Of a DNA stretch of 64,000 bases, positions 10,382 through 64,000 are shown piece after piece. The position numbers and the translations under genes are program-made. Source of the stretch: Candidatus Rokuibacteriota bacterium (GTDB taxonomy: Bacteria; Methylomirabilota; Methylomirabilia; Rokubacteriales; CSP1-6); contig JACPCW010000079.1 in assembly GCA_016184365.1 (NCBI GenBank), positions 1-64,000 of the forward strand, read 5' to 3'. The first letter of the stretch is position 1. Every line of letters begins with the position of its first letter. Under the pieces are notes generated by a model. It had not been told where the DNA came from. It saw only the letters and a list, made by a program, of their open reading frames with translations, and made no database searches.

Positions 10382-10404
10382 CGGCGCACGGGACCGGGGG
10401 TGTC

Positions 10405-10473
10405 GAGGAGCGCCACGGGTTCCCCGGGCGCTCCGAGCGTTTGGGGGTCTGGGGGCCATTTCGGGGCCCCCAG
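10405..10473 (+). repeat. Double-hairpin repeat, family 2, copy 1
   Basis: Two perfect hairpins joined by a short spacer. Hairpin I pairs GGAGCGCC (10407-10414) with GGCGCTCC (10427-10434), with an inner CGGG-ttc-CCCG stem. Hairpin II pairs CTGGGGGCC (10449-10457) with GGCCCCCAG (10465-10473). It starts 23 bases after the amidohydrolase stop, in that gene's orientation, and ends 5 bases before the convergent permease gene. It may act as a two-way terminator here. About 95% identical to copy 2 at 13903-13971. Confidence 0.9.
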
Positions 10474-10478
10474 CCAAA

Positions 10479-13888: not shown

Positions 13889-13902
13889 CACGATCGATAT
13901 AG

Positions 13903-13971
13903 CTGGGGGCCCCGAAATGGCCCCCAGACCCCCCGCGCTCGGAGCGCCCCGGGGAACCCGTGGCGCTCCTC
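13903..13971 (-). repeat. Double-hairpin repeat, family 2, copy 2
   Basis: Minus-strand copy of the element at 10405-10473, differing at about three positions. Hairpin II is 903-911 with 919-927 and hairpin I is 941-948 with 962-969 (all +13000). It starts 15 bases after the stop of the carboxymuconolactone decarboxylase-like gene and runs into the beginning of the glycosyltransferase coding frame, so it fills the junction between two genes read in the same direction. Confidence 0.9.
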
Positions 13972-13986
13972 GAATTCCCGTTGTCT

Positions 13987-16989: not shown

Positions 16990-17119
16990 ATGGTTGGGCG
17001 AAGCCGCAGCACGGCGCGGAGCCGCAGGCGGAGCGGGTGCGAGGCGAGTCTGTGATGGTTGGGCGAAGCCGCAGCACGGCGCGGAGCCGCAGGCGGAGCG
17101 GGTGCGAGGCGAGTCTGTG
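16990..17119 (+). repeat. 65-bp perfect tandem duplication ending at a start codon
   Basis: Two identical 65-bp units, 16990-17054 and 17055-17119. Each begins ATGGTTGGGCG and ends GAGTCTGTG, and the second unit is followed directly by the ATG of the enoyl-CoA hydratase gene. The unit is 65 bp, not a multiple of three, so the copies read in different frames. Each unit carries a purine-rich GGCGAG stretch before its end, so the second unit supplies the ribosome-binding region of the downstream gene. Confidence 0.95.
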
Positions 17120-29605: not shown

Positions 29606-30649
29606 ATGAGACGCCACATCGTTGCTGCCTGCGCGCTGCTCACCGCCGTCGTCGTCATCGCCGGTCCGTCGCCGGTGCCCGCCCAGAAGGAGCCGCTGGT
29701 CGTCAGCGTGTGGGGCGGGAACTGGAAGGACACCGTCGAGAAGATCGTCGGCAAGGCCTACACCGCGAAGACCGGCACGCCCGTCGAGTTCGAGGTCGGC
29801 GGCACGATCGACCGGCTCGCGAAGGCGCGCGTCGCCAAGGGCGCGCCGCTCGTCGACATCAACTTCACCACGACGCACGTCGGGCGGCTCTACATCTCCG
29901 ACGGCCTCTACCAGAAGCTCGACATGGCGAAGCTGCCGAACGCGAAGGACCTCGCGAAGGAAGCGCTGCGCAGCGACTTCCACCTCGGCACGTGGGCGTA
30001 CGTGTACACGATCGCCTACCGGCCCGATCAGGTGCCGTTCGAGATCACGAAGTGGTCGGATCTGTGGGATCCGCGCCTGAAGGGCAAGGTCGGCCTGCCG
30101 GACTTCGATCCGTCGCACATCATCACGATCGCCGCGCTGCTCGACGGCGGCGACGAGATCAGCTGGCAGAAGGGCTCGGAGCGTCTGAAGAAGCTCAAGC
30201 CGAACGTCGCGGCGTTCTTCTCCACCGACGCGCGCAGCCAGGATCTGATGAAGACGGGTGAGGCGCCGGTCCAGGTGATGCTCTCGATCAACGCGTTCCA
30301 CCTGATGGACCAGGGTCTGAACGTCAAGGTGATCACGCCGCGCGACAAGCCCGGCATCGTCGGCATCGACACCGTCGCGATCATGGCGGGCACCAAGAAG
30401 GCGGACGCGGCGCACCAGTTCGTCGATCTCGTGCTGTCGAAGGAGATCCAGGACCAGCTCGTCGCGACGTTCAAGGCGGGACCGACGAACATGAAGACGG
30501 CGGTGCCCGCGAAGCTGCGCGGACAGCCCGGCGTGTTCACGACGCCGGCGGAATGGAAGGAGCGCGGCTACATCATGAACGACGAGGCGCGCGCGAAGAC
30601 GCTGGCGGCCTGGAAGGACTGGTTCAACGCGAACCTCGTTGCCAAGTAG
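29606..30649 (+). CDS. ABC transporter extracellular binding protein (PotD/Fe-type family 1)
   Basis: A 347-residue binding protein with signal peptide (AACALLTAVVVIAGPSPVPAQ). The mature part has VSVWGGNWKD, WSDLWDPRLKGKVGLPDFD and IDTVAIMAGTKKADAAHQFV, typical of the spermidine/putrescine-like family that also takes opines, thiamine and many nitrogen compounds. ATG 29606 follows AGAGGAGGAC. Its permeases and ATPase lie 9-12 kb downstream on the same strand (39829, 40650, 41719), separated by catabolic genes. It heads the cluster and overlaps hyuA by 11 bases. Confidence 0.92.
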   Translation: MRRHIVAACALLTAVVVIAGPSPVPAQKEPLVVSVWGGNWKDTVEKIVGKAYTAKTGTPVEFEVGGTIDRLAKARVAKGAPLVDINFTTTHVGRLYISDGLYQKLDMAKLPNAKDLAKEALRSDFHLGTWAYVYTIAYRPDQVPFEITKWSDLWDPRLKGKVGLPDFDPSHIITIAALLDGGDEISWQKGSERLKKLKPNVAAFFSTDARSQDLMKTGEAPVQVMLSINAFHLMDQGLNVKVITPRDKPGIVGIDTVAIMAGTKKADAAHQFVDLVLSKEIQDQLVATFKAGPTNMKTAVPAKLRGQPGVFTTPAEWKERGYIMNDEARAKTLAAWKDWFNANLVAK

Positions 30650-32648
30650 GTCGGTCCGCATCGGCGTCGACGTCGGCGGGACGTTCACCGACGTCGTCGC
30701 GCGCGACGCCAGGGGGCGCCTGCGCGAGCTGAAAGTGCCGACGACGCCGGCGAATCCGTCGGCCGGTGTCCTCGCCGGCATCGCGGCGCTCCGCTTACCG
30801 TCCGGCCCCGAAGGTGCGCTCGCCGCCGTGGCGCACGGCACCACCGCCGTCACCAACGCGATCGTCGAGGGGCGCATCGCGCGCGTCGGGCTGGTCACCA
30901 CGCGCGGTTTCCGCGACGTGCTCGAGATCGCGCGCCAGAACCGCGCGCACCTCTACGATCTGGCCGCGCTGCCGCGCCCGGAGCCGCTCGTGCCGCGTCG
31001 GCTGCGTCTCGAAGTCGCCGAGCGGGTCACCGTCGACGGCACCGTGCTGACGCCGCTCGACGCCACCGCTGTCGGCTCGCTCGTCGAGCGCCTGCGGGGC
31101 GAGGGCATCGACAGCGTCGCCGTATGCCTTCTGCACGCGTATGCGAACCCCGCGCACGAGCGCGAGCTGCGCGCGGCGCTGGCGCCGCACTTCGCGCACG
31201 TGTCGATCTCGAGCGACATCAACGCGGAGTTCCGCGAGTACGAGCGGACGGCGACGACCGTGCTGAACGCCGCGGTCATGCCGCTCGCGACGCGCTACGT
31301 CGACGATCTCGTCGATCGCCTCGGCCGCAATCTCCCGCTGCACCTGCTCCACTCCGCGGGCGGCATGATGTCCGCCGACGCGGCGAAAGAGCGCCCGCTC
31401 TCGATGGCGATGTCGGGCCCCGCCGCCGGCGTCGCGGCCGCCGCGTGGGTGGCGAAGCGCCTCGGGCTCGATCGCGCGGTGGCCTTCGACATGGGCGGCA
31501 CGACGACGGACGTCTGTCTCATCACCGGCGGCCGCGCGGAAACGACGTCGCAGCGCCGCCTCGGCGGGTATCCGGTGCGGTTGCCGATGGTGGCCGTCGA
31601 ATCGATCGGTGCCGGCGGCGGATCGATCGCGTACGCCGACGCGACCGGCGCGCTGAAGGTCGGTCCGCGCAGCGCCGGCGCGCAGCCGGGTCCGGCGTGC
31701 TACGGCGCGGGTGGCGAGGATCCGACGGTCACCGACGCGAACCTCGTGCTCGGGTATCTGAACGCCGAGCGCGTGTACGGCGGCTCGATCCGTCTCGACG
31801 TGCAGCGCGCGCAGGCCGCCGTGCAGCAGATCGCACGCCGCTTCGACCTCGGTCTCGTCGAGGCCGCGCACGGCATCGTGGAGGTCGCGAACTCGAACAT
31901 GCTGCGCGCGCTGCGGCTCGTGTCCGTGCAGCGCGGGTACGACCTGCGCCGCTTCGCGCTCGTCGCGTACGGCGGCGCCGGTCCGGTGCATGCGAGCGCG
32001 CTGGCCCGCATGGCCGGCGTCACGCGCGTCGTCGTGCCCGCGCAGTCCGGCGCCTTCTCCGCGCTCGGCTGTCTCGTCTCGCCGCTGCGCTACGACGCCG
32101 TGCAGACGTATCGCGCGCAGCTCGACGGCTTCGACCCGAAGCCGCTGGAGGACCGCTTCGGCGACCTCGAAGCGCACGGCATGCGGCCGCTGGCGGCGGA
32201 GGGCATCGCCGCCCGTCGCGTGACCGTCTCCCGCAGCGTGGATCTCCGCTACGCGGGGCAGAACTACGAGCTCGAGATTCCCTACGACCGCGATCCGGCC
32301 CGGCTGCGCGCGGCGTTCGAAGCGCGGCACCGACAGCTCTACGGGTACGCCACGGGCGAGGGGGTCGAGTGCGTGAACGCGCGGGTCGTGGCGATGGTCG
32401 TCTCGCGCGAGCGTGTCACGGCGACGATGCGCACGGCGCGCACGCCTGAAGTGACGGGCAGCCAGCGCGCGTATTTCCGGAAAGGCGGGGCAGTGGCGAT
32501 GAAGCGGTACGCGCGCGAGAGCGTCGGCGCGCGGGGGATCGTCGGCCCCGCGCTCATCGAGGACGAATGGTCGACGACGATCCTGCTGCCTGGCGATCGC
32601 TGCACCGCGACGCCGGCCGGCGATCTCGTCATCGAGGTCGGGCGGTGA
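30639..32648 (+). CDS. hyuA: Hydantoinase/oxoprolinase subunit A
   Basis: A 669-residue ATP-dependent hydrolase subunit of the hydantoinase A/acetophenone carboxylase/acetone carboxylase group. The actin-like phosphate loops are GVDVGGTFTDVV near the N-terminus and FDMGGTTTDVCLI at about 284-296. With HyuB it opens lactam or hydantoin-like rings, or carboxylates ketones, at the cost of ATP. The start is TTG 30639, inside the end of the binding-protein gene and in place for the family N-terminus. A second A/B pair is at 61830. Confidence 0.92.
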   Translation: MPSRSVRIGVDVGGTFTDVVARDARGRLRELKVPTTPANPSAGVLAGIAALRLPSGPEGALAAVAHGTTAVTNAIVEGRIARVGLVTTRGFRDVLEIARQNRAHLYDLAALPRPEPLVPRRLRLEVAERVTVDGTVLTPLDATAVGSLVERLRGEGIDSVAVCLLHAYANPAHERELRAALAPHFAHVSISSDINAEFREYERTATTVLNAAVMPLATRYVDDLVDRLGRNLPLHLLHSAGGMMSADAAKERPLSMAMSGPAAGVAAAAWVAKRLGLDRAVAFDMGGTTTDVCLITGGRAETTSQRRLGGYPVRLPMVAVESIGAGGGSIAYADATGALKVGPRSAGAQPGPACYGAGGEDPTVTDANLVLGYLNAERVYGGSIRLDVQRAQAAVQQIARRFDLGLVEAAHGIVEVANSNMLRALRLVSVQRGYDLRRFALVAYGGAGPVHASALARMAGVTRVVVPAQSGAFSALGCLVSPLRYDAVQTYRAQLDGFDPKPLEDRFGDLEAHGMRPLAAEGIAARRVTVSRSVDLRYAGQNYELEIPYDRDPARLRAAFEARHRQLYGYATGEGVECVNARVVAMVVSRERVTATMRTARTPEVTGSQRAYFRKGGAVAMKRYARESVGARGIVGPALIEDEWSTTILLPGDRCTATPAGDLVIEVGR

Positions 32649-32676
32649 AGCGCGCGACGAAACGCGCGGTGAGATC

Positions 32677-32770
32677 GAGGCGCGCCACGGCGGCGCCGGG
32701 GCGCGTCCGAGCGCGGGGGGGTATGGGGGGCCATGTCGGGGCCCCCCATGTAATGATCGGGGCCCCCCAT
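32677..32770 (+). repeat. Double-hairpin repeat, family 2, copy 3
   Basis: Starts 28 bases after the hyuA stop. Hairpin I is GGCGCGCC with GGCGCGtCC; relative to copy 1 the third pair changes from A-T to C-G with one bulged T. Hairpin II is TGGGGGGCC with GGCCCCCCA. The right half of hairpin II and its flank (CGGGGCCCCCCATGTAATGAT) is then repeated in tandem, giving a third possible arm. The element ends within the N-terminal coding region of hyuB and supplies two of its candidate ATG codons. Confidence 0.85.
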
Positions 32771-34381
32771 GTGATCACGGTCGAAGTCGTGCGCAACGCG
32801 CTCTATGCGATCGCCGAGGAGATGAGCGTCATCGTGATGCGCTCGGCGCGGTCGCCGCTCCTGAAGGAAGCGGGCGATCTGTCGTCGGCGCTGACCGACG
32901 CGGAAGGCCGGCTGATCGCTCAGGGCCGCGACATCCCGATCCACATGGGCGTGATGGGCTTCACGGTGAAGGAGTTCTTGAAGCGCGTCCCCGCGTCGAC
33001 GCTTCGCGAGGGCGACGTGTGGTTTCTGAACGTGCCGGAGATCGGCGGCAACCATTTGCCCGACGTGAAGGCGCTGCGCCCGGTCTTCGCCGGCGGCAAG
33101 CTGCGCGCGTTCGCCGTGAACCTCGCGCACTGGGCCGACGTCGGCGGCGCGGTGCCGGGCAGCTACGTGCCGTACGCGACGGAGTGCTACCAGGAAGGGC
33201 TGCGGATCGCGCCGATCCGGCTCTTCTCCGCGGCCGGTCCCGATCGCGAGAAGCTCGAGTTCGTGCTGTCGAACGTCCGCGGCCGCGAGGAGCGTGAAGG
33301 CGACATCTTCGCGCAGTACGCGGCCAACGACGTCGCGGCGCGCCGCTTCGCCGAGCTCTTTGCCGAACACGGCCCCGACGTCGTCGGCCGCTGCTTCGAG
33401 CGGCTGCACCAGGAAAGCGAAGCCGGGATGCGCGCCGCGATCCGCGCGCTGCCCGACGGCACGTGGGAAGGCGAGGACTGGCTCGACGACGACGGCGTCG
33501 ACGACCGGCGCATCCGCATCAAGGCGCGCGTCACCGTGGCCGGCGACGAGGCGACGTTCGACTTCACCGGCACGGATCCGCAGGCCCGCGGTCCCGTGAA
33601 CACGACGTATTTCATCGCGTGCTCCGCCGTGTACTACGCGATGAAGGCGCTCGTCGCGCCGGACGTGCCGCCGAACGACGGATGCTATCGGCCGCTGCGG
33701 GTGATCGTTCCGCCCCGCACGGTGCTCAGCGCCGATCCCGACCGGCCGGTCGTCGGCGGGAACCATGAAACGTCGCAGCGCGTCGTCGACGCGATCTTCA
33801 AGGCCTTCGCGCCCGTGCTGGCGGAGCGCGTCGTCGCCGGCGGGCCGACGACCTCGGGCGTGATGATCTTCGGCGCCCGTGGCGGCGACGGTCGCTGGCG
33901 GATCCTCTACGAGACGCACGGCGGCGGCGAAGGCGCCGGCGCCGGTCGCGATGGCGCGTCCGCGACGCGTGTCCACATGTCGAACGTGATGAACACGCCG
34001 GTCGAGGTGATCGAAGGCGAATATCCGATTGCCGTCGAGGAGCAGACGCTGCGCGCCGGCTCCGGCGGCGAGGGCCGCCATCGCGGCGGCCTCGGCGTGC
34101 GGCGCGCGTACCGGATTCTCGGCGACAGCGTCACGCTGACGACGATGCTGGAGCGCCGGCTCGTCCCGCCGTGGGGCGTGCACGGTGGCAAGGACGCGCT
34201 GCCGTTTCGTCTGACCCTCAATCCGGGTCCGGGCGAGCGCGTGATCCGCGGGAAGGAAACGCTCACGCTGAAGGCGGGCGACCTGGTCCTCGTCGAGACG
34301 TGCGGCGGCGGCGGCTACGGCGTCCCGGCGGAGCGATCGCGGGAAGCCATCGAGCACGACCGGCGGGAAGGCTACGTATGA
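32723..34381 (+). CDS. hyuB: Hydantoinase/oxoprolinase subunit B
   Basis: A 552-residue HyuB subunit. VITVEVVRNALYAIAEEM is the usual family start, after which SPLLKEAGDLSSAL, GRDIPIHMGVM, and the C-terminal GGEGRHRGGLGVRR follow. In-frame starts are ATG 32723, ATG 32753 and GTG 32771; the first two lie inside the double-hairpin repeat and would add up to 17 residues reading GGHVGAPH. GTG 32771 gives the conventional length. Works with HyuA (30639). ATGA overlap with the SDR gene. Confidence 0.92.
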   Translation: MGGHVGAPHVMIGAPHVITVEVVRNALYAIAEEMSVIVMRSARSPLLKEAGDLSSALTDAEGRLIAQGRDIPIHMGVMGFTVKEFLKRVPASTLREGDVWFLNVPEIGGNHLPDVKALRPVFAGGKLRAFAVNLAHWADVGGAVPGSYVPYATECYQEGLRIAPIRLFSAAGPDREKLEFVLSNVRGREEREGDIFAQYAANDVAARRFAELFAEHGPDVVGRCFERLHQESEAGMRAAIRALPDGTWEGEDWLDDDGVDDRRIRIKARVTVAGDEATFDFTGTDPQARGPVNTTYFIACSAVYYAMKALVAPDVPPNDGCYRPLRVIVPPRTVLSADPDRPVVGGNHETSQRVVDAIFKAFAPVLAERVVAGGPTTSGVMIFGARGGDGRWRILYETHGGGEGAGAGRDGASATRVHMSNVMNTPVEVIEGEYPIAVEEQTLRAGSGGEGRHRGGLGVRRAYRILGDSVTLTTMLERRLVPPWGVHGGKDALPFRLTLNPGPGERVIRGKETLTLKAGDLVLVETCGGGGYGVPAERSREAIEHDRREGYV

Positions 34382-37029: not shown

Positions 37030-37490
37030 CCACCCGCCTTCTCATCAACGGCCGGGCGCGCGACGTCGACGTCGAGCCGCATCGCACGCTCCTCGAAGTC
37101 CTGCGCGACACGCTCGGCATCTTCGACGCCAAGGAAGGCTGCAACGAGGGCGTGTGCGGCGCCTGCACGGTGCTGCTCGACGGCCGGCCGGTCTCGAGCT
37201 GTCTCGTGCTCGCGGTCGCGACGCGCGGGAAGCCGATCACGACGGTGCGCGGTCTCGAGCGCGACGGCGATCTCCATCCGCTGCAGGACGCCTTCCTGCG
37301 CCACGGCGCCGTGCAGTGCGGCTTCTGCACGCCGGGCATGCTGCTGACGGCGTACGCGTTCGTCGAGGCGCATCCGCATCCCGACCGCGCGGCGATCCGC
37401 GAGGCGCTCGAGGGCAACCTGTGCCGCTGCACCGGCTACACGAAGATCGTCGACGCGGTGGAAGACTACGCGAGGAACCGATGCGGATGA
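37026..37490 (+). CDS. Molybdenum hydroxylase 2Fe-2S subunit (CoxS/XdhC-type)
   Basis: A 154-residue iron-sulfur subunit. The plant-type cluster ligands are Cys39, Cys44, Cys47 and Cys59; the second cluster is bound by QCGFCTPGM and CRCTGY. No Tat signal, so the enzyme is cytoplasmic. ATG 37026 and stop 37490 overlap both neighbours by 4 nt. A double-hairpin repeat begins 2 bases after its stop. Confidence 0.95.
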   Translation: MTTRLLINGRARDVDVEPHRTLLEVLRDTLGIFDAKEGCNEGVCGACTVLLDGRPVSSCLVLAVATRGKPITTVRGLERDGDLHPLQDAFLRHGAVQCGFCTPGMLLTAYAFVEAHPHPDRAAIREALEGNLCRCTGYTKIVDAVEDYARNRCG

Positions 37491-39832
37491 TCGAGGGGGG
37501 CCACGGCTTCGCCGGGGACCCCCGAGCGGTGGGGGGTGTGGGGGGCCATATCGGGGCCCCTCACTCGGTGGTCGGCCAGCGCGTCGTGCGCCACGACGCG
37601 CGCGACAAGGTTCAGGCGGCCACCGCGTACGCCGGCGACTGGGCGATGCCCGGCATGCTGCACGGCGTGGTCGTGCGCTCGCCGTATCCCTCCGCCCGGA
37701 TCCGCGGCATCGACACGACGAAAGCGGCCGCGATGCGGGGCGTCGCGTGCGTGCTCACCGCCCGCGACGTGCCGCGCAACACGCTGATGACCGACGTGCC
37801 CGGACAGACGACGACCGTCGGTCCGCTGCGCGCGAAGCTGCACGTGCTCGCCGAGGATCGCGTGCGGCATCAGGGCGAGCCGGTGGCGCTCGTCGCGGCC
37901 GAGACGCTCGAGCAGGCGCGCGACGCCGCGGACGCGGTCGAGGTCGACTACGAGCCGCGGCCCGGCGTGTTCGACGCCGAGCAAGCGCTCGCCCCCGATG
38001 CGCCGAAGGTGCACGACGAGGGCAACCTGCTCGCGCACTGGCGCATCGCGCGCGGCGACGTCGACGCCGCGTTCGCCGGCGCCGCGGTCGTCGTCGAGGG
38101 CGAATACCGGACGCAGTTCGTCGATTCCGCCTATCTCGAGCCCGAGACCGGTGTGGCGTGGATCGATTCCGACGGCGTCATCACGATCCGGCTCTCGACG
38201 CAGGTCATCGAGCACTTCCGCGATGTCGCGGACGTGCTCGACGTGCCGCAGAACCGCGTCCGCGTGATCGGCGCGTATCTCGGCGGCGGCTTCGGGGGCA
38301 AGGAAGACGTGACCGTCGAGGTGTATCTCGGACTGCTCGCGGTGAAGACCGGGCGCCCCGTGAAGATGGTGTGGACACGGCAGGAGTCGCTGCTCGCGCG
38401 CGCGAAGCGGCATCCGTATCGCCTGCGCTATCGCACCGCGGCCGCGAAGACCGGCGAGATCCTCGCGCAGGACGTCGAGCTGCTGGGCGACTCGGGCGCG
38501 TACGCCTACCTGTCGGCGCTCGTGCTGCTGTATTCCACGGTCACCGCGTGCGGTCCGTATCGCGTGCCCGCCGCGCGCGTGCAGGCGCGCGTGGCGTACA
38601 CGAACAACCCGCCGACGTCGGCGATGCGCGGGTTCGGCGCGATGCAGACCGTCTTCGGCTACGAGTCGCAGATGGACCGCGTCGCGCGCGCGCTCGGCCT
38701 GCCGCCGGCCGACGTCCGCAAGGCGAACGCGCTCCGCCGCGGCGACACGCTGCCGGTCGGACAGGTGATCGAGACGCACTGCGCGCTGCCCGAGCTGATC
38801 GATCGCGCGTGGGCAGGGCTCGGCGCGCCGACGCCGCCGCGCGCGCCGCACGCGAAGGTCGGGCGTGGTCTCGCGTGCAATCTCCAGCCGTACGGACGGA
38901 TCGTCTGGCTCCACGACTGGGCGAGCGCGTGGGTCGGATTCGAGATGGACGGCAGCCTCGTGGTGCGCTGCGGATGTCCCGACGTCGGCGGCGGTCAGGC
39001 GAGCTCGCTCTGTCAGATCGCGGCCGAGGTGCTCGGCGTGCCGATCGATCGCATCAGCGTGCACATCGCCGACAGCGCGCTGACGCCGCTGGCCGGCACG
39101 ACGACGGCGAGCCGCCAGCTCTACATGTCGGGCAACGCGACGCTCAAGGCGTCGGGCGAGCTGCGCGAGCAGATTCTCGGCGTCGCTGCGAAGCTGCTCG
39201 AGACGTCGGTTGCCGACGTCGATCTCGCCGGCGGCGAGGTCCGCGCCGCCGACGGCCGGACGATGCCGCTCCGGCAAGTCCTGGCCGCGTGCGCGCGCAT
39301 GGGCGTGCCGCGTAGCCATCTCGCCGTATACCACGCCCCGGCTGGGGAACCCGTGGATCTGACGAAAGGCTCGGGCAAGATCTTTCCGGACTACACGTTC
39401 GGCTGCCACGCGGTGGAGCTCGAGGTCGACACCGAGACGGGACGCGTGCGGCTGCTCAAACACGTCGCCGCGCACGACGTCGGACGCGCGATCAATCCGA
39501 TGTCGGTCGAAGGCCAGATCGAAGGCGGCGCGGTGCAGGGCCTCGGCTACGCGATGATGGAAGAGGTCGTGCTCGAGGACGGCATCAACCTGACGACGTC
39601 GTTTGCGTCGTACCTGATCCCGACGACGGTCGACGTGCCCGACGTCGAGGCGATCGTGCTCGAATCCGGCGAAGGGCTGGGGCCGTTCGGCGCGCGCGGC
39701 ATCGGCGAGCCGCCGATCGGCCCGCCGGCGGCGGCCGTCGCCAACGCGATCGAGGACGCGACGGGCGCGCGCGTGACGCGCCTGCCAATGACGCCCGAAC
39801 GCGTCGCGCGCGCCTTGCGATTGTTGACGTGA
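37487..39832 (+). CDS. Molybdenum hydroxylase molybdopterin subunit (xanthine dehydrogenase-like)
   Basis: A 781-residue large subunit. GAYLGGGFGGKED, AMRGFGAMQT, GTTTASRQLYMSG and the active-site GIGEPPIGPPAAA with the catalytic Glu are present. The AYRCSFR loop of true CO dehydrogenase is absent, so this oxidises an aromatic N-heterocycle or aldehyde-type substrate. ATG 37487 overlaps the previous stop. The first recognisable family residues are SVVGQRVVRHDARDKV at 27-42; residues 3-26 come from the double-hairpin repeat and include GGHIGAPH. The stop overlaps the permease start (GTGA). Confidence 0.94.
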   Translation: MIEGGHGFAGDPRAVGGVGGHIGAPHSVVGQRVVRHDARDKVQAATAYAGDWAMPGMLHGVVVRSPYPSARIRGIDTTKAAAMRGVACVLTARDVPRNTLMTDVPGQTTTVGPLRAKLHVLAEDRVRHQGEPVALVAAETLEQARDAADAVEVDYEPRPGVFDAEQALAPDAPKVHDEGNLLAHWRIARGDVDAAFAGAAVVVEGEYRTQFVDSAYLEPETGVAWIDSDGVITIRLSTQVIEHFRDVADVLDVPQNRVRVIGAYLGGGFGGKEDVTVEVYLGLLAVKTGRPVKMVWTRQESLLARAKRHPYRLRYRTAAAKTGEILAQDVELLGDSGAYAYLSALVLLYSTVTACGPYRVPAARVQARVAYTNNPPTSAMRGFGAMQTVFGYESQMDRVARALGLPPADVRKANALRRGDTLPVGQVIETHCALPELIDRAWAGLGAPTPPRAPHAKVGRGLACNLQPYGRIVWLHDWASAWVGFEMDGSLVVRCGCPDVGGGQASSLCQIAAEVLGVPIDRISVHIADSALTPLAGTTTASRQLYMSGNATLKASGELREQILGVAAKLLETSVADVDLAGGEVRAADGRTMPLRQVLAACARMGVPRSHLAVYHAPAGEPVDLTKGSGKIFPDYTFGCHAVELEVDTETGRVRLLKHVAAHDVGRAINPMSVEGQIEGGAVQGLGYAMMEEVVLEDGINLTTSFASYLIPTTVDVPDVEAIVLESGEGLGPFGARGIGEPPIGPPAAAVANAIEDATGARVTRLPMTPERVARALRLLT
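37493..37563 (+). repeat. Double-hairpin repeat, family 2, copy 4
   Basis: Lies wholly in the reading frame of the molybdopterin subunit, 2 bases after the FeS-subunit stop. Hairpin I has inner stem CGGC-ttc-GCCG where copy 1 has CGGG-ttc-CCCG, a compensated change, and an outer GGGGG/CCCCC arm. Hairpin II is TGGGGGGCC with GGCCCCTCA, including one G-T pair. The spacer GAGCG-x-GGGGGGT is shared with copies 1-3. Confidence 0.85.
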
Positions 39833-61829: not shown

Positions 61830-63851
61830 ATGTTCGTCGTCGGGATCGACGTGGGCGGCACGTTCACCGACGTGACCGCGGTCGACGAGGCCACCGGCCG
61901 GGTCACGGTCACGAAGGTGCCGTCGCGCCCGCGTGACGAAGCGGGCGCGGTGCTCGCCGGCCTCGCGGCGCTGGCGATTCCCGACGGCGGTGTCCGCCGG
62001 CTCGTCCACGGCACCACCGTCGGGACCAACGCCGTGCTCGAGCGCCGCGGCGCGCGCGTCGCGCTGCTGACGACCGAGGGCTTTCGCGATCTGCTCGAGA
62101 TCGGCCGCACGAAGCGCAACATTCCCGCGCTGTTCATCCCGACCTTCGTGCGCCCGAAGCCGGTGGTGCCGCGTGCGCTGCGGTTCGAGGTGGCCGAGCG
62201 CCTGCTGCACGACGGCTCGGTGCTCCGGCCGCTCGACGCCGGCGACGTCGCGCGCGCCATCGGCGAGCTCGAGGCGACCGGCGCGGAAGCGGTCGCCGTG
62301 TGTCTGCTCCACGCATGGGCGAACCCGGCGCACGAGCGCATGCTCGGCGAGGCGCTCAAGGCGCGCCTGCCCCACGTGCCGGTCTCGCTCTCGTCGGACG
62401 TCGTGCCCGAGTACCGGGAGTTCGAGCGGTTCTCCACGACGGTCCTGAACGCCTACCTCCAGCCGCTGCTGGACCGGTACCTCGCGGCGCTCGAGGAACG
62501 GCTGCACGCCGCGGGGGTCCTTCCCGGGGTGTTGACGATCGGCTCCGCGGGCGGCGTGCTCTCGTCCGAGACGGCGCGGCGCCTGCCGATCCGCACGATC
62601 CTGTCCGGCCCGGCCGGCGGCGTGAGCCAGGCGTGTTTCATCGCCGAGCGCGCCGGCCTCCGCGACTTCATCACCTACGACATGGGCGGGACGTCGACGG
62701 ACGTCTGCCTGATCCGCGACCTCGATCCCGTGACGACGACCGACAATCTCATCGGCGGCTTTCCCGTGAAGACGCCGCAGATCGATCTCCGCACGGTCGG
62801 CGCCGGCGGCGGCAGCGTCGCCTGGCTCGACGTCGACGGCAGTCTGCAGGTCGGCCCGCGCAGCGCCGGCGCGCGGCCCGGCCCGGCGGCGTACGGTCTG
62901 GGCGGCACCGAGCCGACGGTCACGGACGCGAACGTCGTGCTCGGCCGGATCGGCGTGACGCGCACGCTCGGCGGCGCCATCACGATCGATCCCGGGGCGG
63001 CGACGCGCGCCGTCGAGGGCCTCGCGCAGCGTGTCGCGCTCGACGTCCACGCGACCGCCGACGGCATCATCCGCATCGCCGTCGCGCGCATGGTGTCGTC
63101 GATCCGCGAGATCTCGATCCAGCGCGGTCACGACCCGCGCGATTTCACGCTCATCGCGTACGGCGGCGCCGGTCCGATGCACGCGGTCGCGATCGCCGCG
63201 GAGCTCGGGCTGCCGCGCGTGCTCGTGCCGCGGCATCCCGGGAACTTCTCGGCGCTCGGACTGCTCGTGTCCGATCTCAAGCACGACGACGTCCGCACGC
63301 ACCTCGGCCCGCTCCGCGACCGGATCGGCGGCGTCGGCGCGCTCTTCGCGGAGATGGAGCGCGTCGCCGCCGGCCGCCTCGAGGCCGATGGCTTCGGCGC
63401 GACGGCCAGACGCATCGAGCGCTCGCTCGATCTTCGCTACGCCGGGCAGGCGTTCGAGCTCGCCGTGCCCGTCGACACGCGGCTCGAGCTCGCGGTCATC
63501 GAGCGCGAGTTCCATCGGCGCCACGAGGCGGCCTACGGCCACGCGAACCTCGCCGGCCAGATCGAGCTGGTGAACGCGCGCATCGCGGCCTACGGCGTCG
63601 TCACGAAGCCGGAGCCTCCGCGGTATCGCAGCGACGGCGTGCGTCTGGACGACGCGCGCGTCGAGACGCGTCGCCTCTGGTTCGACGGTGAGCCCGTCGA
63701 CTGTCCGGTCTGGGACCGTGACCGGCTGCCGGAAGGCGGCCGCTTCGCGGGGCCGGCGCTGATCGAAGAGTTCGGCTCGACGACCGTGGTACCGCCCGGC
63801 TGGCGCGGGGCGATCGACGAGCCCGGCAATCTGCTGCTGGAGCGCGCGTGA
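61830..63851 (+). CDS. hyuA: Hydantoinase/oxoprolinase subunit A (second copy)
   Basis: A 673-residue paralogue of the 30639 gene. GIDVGGTFTDVTAVD and TYDMGGTSTDVCLI are the ATP-binding loops; LRTVGAGGGSVAWLD and IAYGGAGPMHA are family blocks. ATG 61830 fits the family N-terminus. It overlaps the next gene by 4 nt and starts an operon running out of the window. Confidence 0.93.
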   Translation: MFVVGIDVGGTFTDVTAVDEATGRVTVTKVPSRPRDEAGAVLAGLAALAIPDGGVRRLVHGTTVGTNAVLERRGARVALLTTEGFRDLLEIGRTKRNIPALFIPTFVRPKPVVPRALRFEVAERLLHDGSVLRPLDAGDVARAIGELEATGAEAVAVCLLHAWANPAHERMLGEALKARLPHVPVSLSSDVVPEYREFERFSTTVLNAYLQPLLDRYLAALEERLHAAGVLPGVLTIGSAGGVLSSETARRLPIRTILSGPAGGVSQACFIAERAGLRDFITYDMGGTSTDVCLIRDLDPVTTTDNLIGGFPVKTPQIDLRTVGAGGGSVAWLDVDGSLQVGPRSAGARPGPAAYGLGGTEPTVTDANVVLGRIGVTRTLGGAITIDPGAATRAVEGLAQRVALDVHATADGIIRIAVARMVSSIREISIQRGHDPRDFTLIAYGGAGPMHAVAIAAELGLPRVLVPRHPGNFSALGLLVSDLKHDDVRTHLGPLRDRIGGVGALFAEMERVAAGRLEADGFGATARRIERSLDLRYAGQAFELAVPVDTRLELAVIEREFHRRHEAAYGHANLAGQIELVNARIAAYGVVTKPEPPRYRSDGVRLDDARVETRRLWFDGEPVDCPVWDRDRLPEGGRFAGPALIEEFGSTTVVPPGWRGAIDEPGNLLLERA

Positions 63852-64000
63852 CCATGGGAGGGCGAGTCGATCCCATCACGCTCGAAGTCCTGCGCGAGGC
63901 CTTTTCGTCGATCGTGCGCGAGATGCGGGTGACGCTGCTCCGCACCGCGTATTCGTCGATCCTCTACGAGGGCGAGGACTTCTCGTGCGTGCTCATGGAC
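63848..64000 (+). CDS. hyuB: Hydantoinase/oxoprolinase subunit B, 5' part
   Basis: The first 51 codons of a HyuB gene, cut by the window end. It reads VDPITLEVLREAFSSIVREM and RTAYSSILYEGEDFSCVLMD, the regular family N-terminus with no repeat insertion. GTG 63848 overlaps the hyuA stop; ATG 63854 is the alternative. It shows what the other hyuB (32723) start looks like without the double-hairpin element. Confidence 0.9.
   Translation, partial: MTMGGRVDPITLEVLREAFSSIVREMRVTLLRTAYSSILYEGEDFSCVLMD

Follow-up and report, generated by a model that had tools for sequence, protein, structure and literature searches.

A putatively translated two-hairpin repeat at overlapping hydantoinase genes in the Rokubacteria

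Known repeat families and the Rokubacteria element

What kind of repeat might lie across the start of a conserved enzyme gene and leave its reading frame unbroken? The best-known palindromes that code for protein are those of Rickettsia, which have been read as selfish DNA tolerated in proteins. These RPEs are short palindromes found in frame in unrelated conserved genes, N-termini included (PMC10969869, PMC2229807, PMC3733652). REPs are high-copy palindromes that occupy tandem and convergent junctions by gene 3' ends, with some intragenic copies (PMC3733652), and coding MITEs (ERIC, YPAL and the 107-bp Neisseria element) are small non-autonomous repeats whose open frames are fused to genes (PMC2229807).

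The element described here lies in a window of 64,000 nucleotides, the whole stretch of DNA analyzed, from a soil bacterium of the Rokubacteria. Its 20-nt core occurs four times in the window and not once in 100 shuffles, and gives about 444 matches in the 5.58-Mb genome (146 contigs, 90% complete, probably metagenome-assembled), against 0 for a reversed control pattern. In a sample of the phylum the core is present in 45 of the 57 genomes of the host family and in none of 38 outside it. Detailed analysis covered 158 of the ~444 copies, in 1.47 Mb. The consensus of 142 distinct copies consists of two separate hairpins, ~75 nt in total, and both hairpins covary across those copies, for example by C-G to G-C exchange at alignment pair 26-30 (72 versus 58). 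The element has a GC content of 76%, and its body is stop-free in each of the six frames in at least 86% of 153 copies, an openness that is weak evidence because GC-rich composition opens most frames.

By analogy, the RPEs are the closest counterpart in behavior, since both are palindromic, hairpin-forming dispersed repeats found in frame inside conserved protein genes. The resemblance to RPEs drawn in an earlier note on this DNA has been strengthened: at least 16 genes in the 1.47 Mb have an in-frame N-terminal element, and further copies lie inside several conserved enzymes. Unlike the RPEs, the Rokubacteria element belongs to an unrelated host, has two separate hairpins, lacks the CGTC end tag and is concentrated at stop-start overlaps, and at its insertion sites open frames are found in all three forward phases and on the reverse strand. 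Because differing frames and both strands are used, there is no single conserved element peptide.

With the GTAG/CGTC REPs and BIMEs the element shares copy number, palindromes and a preference for tandem and convergent, not divergent, junctions. It differs in being ~75 nt long with two different hairpins, and in lacking a terminal tag (GTAG near the right end in 1/153 copies, CGTC in 7/153), which rules out identity with that class. A Y1_Tnp/RAYT transposase (PF01797) was rejected as the mobilizer, none being found in the 90%-complete genome; none was found in the copy-rich genomes G008, G009, G027 and G028 either, and G030 has one match. The element resembles the coding MITEs as a small repeat with open frames fused to genes, but no terminal inverted repeat is seen in the consensus, the ends of which belong to different hairpins. 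Rfam gave no curated-family match for positions 32400-33000, and a plasmid or phage origin was rejected, no match being found. In no paper that we found does a repeat act as a fused leader or relay mini-ORF, and titles and abstracts in the open-licence literature held nothing relevant on a comparable repeat in Rokubacteria or Methylomirabilota. The element would best be classed as a new family of REP-like palindromes that code for protein. Such a second family, to all appearance unrelated to that of Rickettsia and present in an environmental bacterium in hundreds of copies, would open the idea of tolerated selfish DNA to statistical testing.

The hyuA/hyuB junction

The third copy in the window lies where two enzyme genes overlap, and the reading frame through it is unbroken. 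The features are as follows.

30639-32648, forward strand: hyuA (PF05378, PF01968 and PF19278), with its TGA stop at 32646-32648
32645-32647, forward strand: GTG, candidate ancestral hyuB start in the hyuB frame, with a matching overlap in most orthologues
32645-32773, forward strand: 43-codon open N-terminal extension VKRATKRAVRSRRATAAPGRVRARGGMGGHVGAPHVMIGAPHV in the hyuB frame, where orthologue N-termini are short
32674-32749, forward strand: two-hairpin repeat, window copy 3, from core matches, consensus and covariation
32675-32710, forward strand: hairpin I, from the fold and compensatory pairs across 142 copies
32722-32750, forward strand: hairpin II, from sequence and covariation, with arms 32722-32732 and 32740-32750 and a loop, ATGTCGG, that holds ATG 32723
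32736-32775, forward strand: 21-nt tandem duplication of the 3' half of hairpin II, holding in-frame ATG 32753 and GTG 32771
32774-34381, forward strand: conserved part of hyuB (ITVEVV...; PF02538, E 3e-180)

The hyuB frame is open from GTG 32645 across the repeat and the duplicated half-hairpin, reading ...GGMGGHVGAPHVMIGAPHV-ITVEVVRNALY. The earlier note had seen that this frame runs through copy 3 with two in-frame ATGs (32723 and 32753) and that half of hairpin II is tandemly duplicated, and both points are confirmed by the frame reading and by the alignment of 32736-32754 with 32757-32775 (95% identical, spacing 21). A similar partial duplication is found in one other copy (C5:32612). The extension is 43 residues long when counted from GTG 32645, not 16, the frame being open well upstream of the stretch first noted. 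That the repeat encodes an N-terminal extension is supported, but the repeat is not needed as a source of start codons, because the GTGA start at 32645 is kept and in frame throughout. GTG 32645 overlaps the hyuA TGA by 4 nt (GTGA), with GAGG upstream at 32634-32637. The in-frame candidate starts are GTG 32645, GTG 32669, ATG 32723, ATG 32753 and GTG 32771, and Shine-Dalgarno strength did not separate them.

HyuB probably carries ~43 extra residues, the majority encoded by the repeat, and their predicted composition is mainly basic and rich in Gly, Pro and His. The Pfam Hydantoinase_B match begins at profile position 3, immediately 3' of the repeat, and hydantoinases of solved structure in the PDB align starting at the residue encoded at 32774. 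In most hyuB orthologues the start overlaps the hyuA stop by 4 nt (ATGA/GTGA), the N-terminus is short, for example (M/V)SPAVHPVTLEVV, and the repeat was not seen at the orthologue hyuA/hyuB junctions shown. The comparison of hyuB 5' ends proposed in the earlier note gave short N-termini and a stop-start overlap without the repeat; the closest sequences compared are ~80% identical, since neither same-genus genome (G029, G030) has a close orthologue of hyuB. One orthologue reads MKSRTRAKVHPVTLEVV, similar to VKRATKRAV...ITVEVV, a likeness which suggests that the element entered hyuB near codon 10 and left the ancestral start intact. Elsewhere in the window, at 63848, another hyuAB pair retains the simple overlap; its hyuB starts GTG ACC ATG GGA... 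there, and the VDPITLEV that had been placed at this position begins at 63866.

The AlphaFold model of HyuB from GTG 32645 is poor (mean pLDDT 57.6). A predicted tryptic peptide, GGMGGHVGAPHVMIGAPHVITVEVVR, would be expected from a start upstream of 32717, whereas the predicted N-terminus would be MIGAPHVITVEVVR for a start at 32753, and (M)ITVEVVR alone for GTG 32771. The 43-residue tail illustrates that start-site annotation at element junctions can err in either direction.

The remaining window copies, and one gene that they touch, are listed below.

10403-10477, forward strand: copy 1 (core 10451-10470), at a convergent junction
13899-13973, reverse strand: copy 2 (core 13906-13925), at a tandem junction
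37491-37565, forward strand: copy 4 (core 37541-37560), in frame at the 5' end of a xanthine dehydrogenase (XDH)-type gene
37481-39832, forward strand: XDH-type molybdenum subunit gene, from domains and orthologues, with copy 4 in frame at its 5' end

Orthologues of the XDH-type gene start MADAVATREALRVVGQ, without the repeat, and copy 4 occupies the first codons. Separately, the window holds two perfect 65-bp tandem copies at 16990-17119.

Reading phase at coupled junctions

In the 1.47 Mb with 158 copies, most copies separate genes in tandem or convergent orientation, the median distance to the upstream stop being 4 nt, and the element occupies 2/166 divergent versus 25/161 convergent junctions (P 9e-7). 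An ATGA or GTGA is present at the upstream stop in 34 of 47 same-strand tandem sites, compared with 250 of 1012 background tandem junctions (P 2e-12), and in 6 of 34 opposite-strand sites. Read from the ancestral start, the element runs in frame into the downstream gene at 16 sites, as an N-terminal extension. At 14 sites it has a second phase (phase 2), that of a mini-ORF, which at 12 of them terminates precisely on the 4-nt overlap (ATGA/GTGA) of the next gene, and four sites are in the third phase, every one with a long spacer. The third phase was observed 0 times, versus 8.3 expected, at 27 unique compact junctions (P ~2e-5), compact meaning below 150 nt, a cut-off picked after seeing the data, with the result stable from 110 to 300 nt; over all 32 junctions it was observed 3 times versus 10.4 expected (P 0.0017). 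Both P values come from permutations in which right phases were shuffled among sites with both phase margins kept, the downstream frames being those of a home-made gene caller. The pattern is alike in two contig subsets, and G030 has two compact sites in the disfavored phase, both in opposite orientation. Fixed element length does not explain the bias, because left and right phases each vary.

Little translational coupling is left once genes are more than ~20-40 nt apart (PMC10666635), so an untranslated insert of ~100 nt should break it and be harmful unless translated. Termination-reinitiation at ATGA overlaps would account for the phase-keeping of insertions at coupled junctions (PMC10666635), and the family-wide avoidance of the coupling-breaking phase suggests that the ancestral start is where ribosomes that translate the element begin. 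We infer that selection on coupling causes the bias. The phase rule may serve as a sequence-only test of translational coupling in a little-cultured lineage.

We consider it rather probable that the hyuB repeat is a copy of a translatable, dispersed, GC-rich, two-hairpin REP-like element, read through from the ancestral GTG into HyuB. The element would have landed in the first hyuB codons, at the 4-nt hyuA/hyuB stop-start overlap, and ribosomes re-initiating at the kept GTG 32645 would read through it into HyuB, adding ~43 residues. Such read-through is possible because, for each of the six frames, the bodies of most copies are free of stop codons. Insertions at coupled junctions would persist mainly if they preserve coupling, either by fusion to the downstream gene or as a mini-ORF whose stop lies in the next ATGA/GTGA. 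The phase bias fits the harm of an untranslated insert and so favors, without proving, GTG 32645 and its 43-residue extension over a start within the repeat. GTG 32771 and the in-repeat ATGs may be secondary starts, and the HyuB tail would be tolerated rather than useful. A bolder extension of this reading, somewhat less likely than not, is that the palindrome is mobile and had a preference for coupled stop-start overlaps, where it inserted on the sense strand and now persists as a translated linker. It would there be either fused to the downstream protein or a relay cistron, flanked on each side by ATGA/GTGA, that hands ribosomes on.

Could the repeat instead have replaced the hyuB start? Translation would then begin at ATG 32723, ATG 32753 or GTG 32771, with a short tail or none, and the open frame upstream would be incidental. 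This deserves about one vote in three. The repeat does contain start codons in the right frame, the element is directly followed by the start of the next gene at phase-2 junctions, and many REPs at annotated N-termini may be extragenic (PMC3733652). The hairpin II loop ATG is also in frame in four other genes, which makes start supply by the repeat plausible elsewhere. Yet the upstream phase should then be free, and the avoidance of the third phase speaks against this. The ancestral coupled start is also undamaged, and a very stable predicted hairpin encloses or adjoins ATG 32753 and GTG 32771. It is unlikely that the element is an ordinary, non-coding, extragenic REP-like stabilizer of mRNA or terminator at gene 3' ends, with the hyuB fusion an accident of a compact operon. 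The REP-like distribution, tandem or convergent, rarely divergent and close to the upstream stop, would fit this (PMC3733652), but the in-frame inserts within conserved enzymes, the phase bias and the same-strand preference at ATGA/GTGA junctions would not. An artefact of assembly or binning, or a GC-rich palindrome that arose by chance, is highly improbable and already contradicted: the source is probably a metagenome assembly in 146 contigs, and Ns lie inside an element array at C5:30231, but the family is found in many separately assembled genomes of the host family, its stems covary, and G030 has an interpretable, nearly empty site (C2:110881), a direct GTGA overlap where the host genome (G000) carries the element.

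Flank matches suggestive of target-site duplication exceed the null, largely in tandem arrays, with P 0.054 at relay sites; duplications are clear at C32:33368, C45:6165 and C2:200960, and the overall excess is not significant. Among 20 copies that overlap gene 3' ends in the 1.47-Mb sample, 18 are antisense to the gene, a bias which suggests that some genes may take a stop codon or a C-terminal tail from the element.

Copies within other enzymes

An XDH paralogue (C45:4299; L174 3780-6149) has an in-frame insert of ~23 amino acids (GGPDMAPHTPQTLAHGPAEPG...) in its cofactor domain MoCoBD_2, encoded by the reverse strand of the element and missing from the window XDH and 15 orthologues. Two HyuA proteins (C23:6225 and C65:11793), aligned to relatives, also have in-frame element inserts. 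Judged by domain hits and sequence, in-frame element-encoded inserts are found in PyrF (C4:39497; L152 1348-2148), between GIRPSS and DDQ, in a histidine phosphatase (C41:27572), and in a TPP enzyme (C51:88992; L168 11798-13522), where the insert is followed by tandem RLADAGTPGALLD repeats. An in-frame N-terminal copy also occurs in an FAD oxidoreductase gene (VIEERHGFPGTLRALGGVGGHVGAPHVIIGAGILG) at C28:68458 (L248), on the same contig as hyuB and the window XDH-type gene. In G030 a variant of the element, with hairpin II GGGGGGCTTCGATAGTCCCCCC, is found on contig C39 (L208-L211), where tandem arrays incorporate copies of the flanking gene end.
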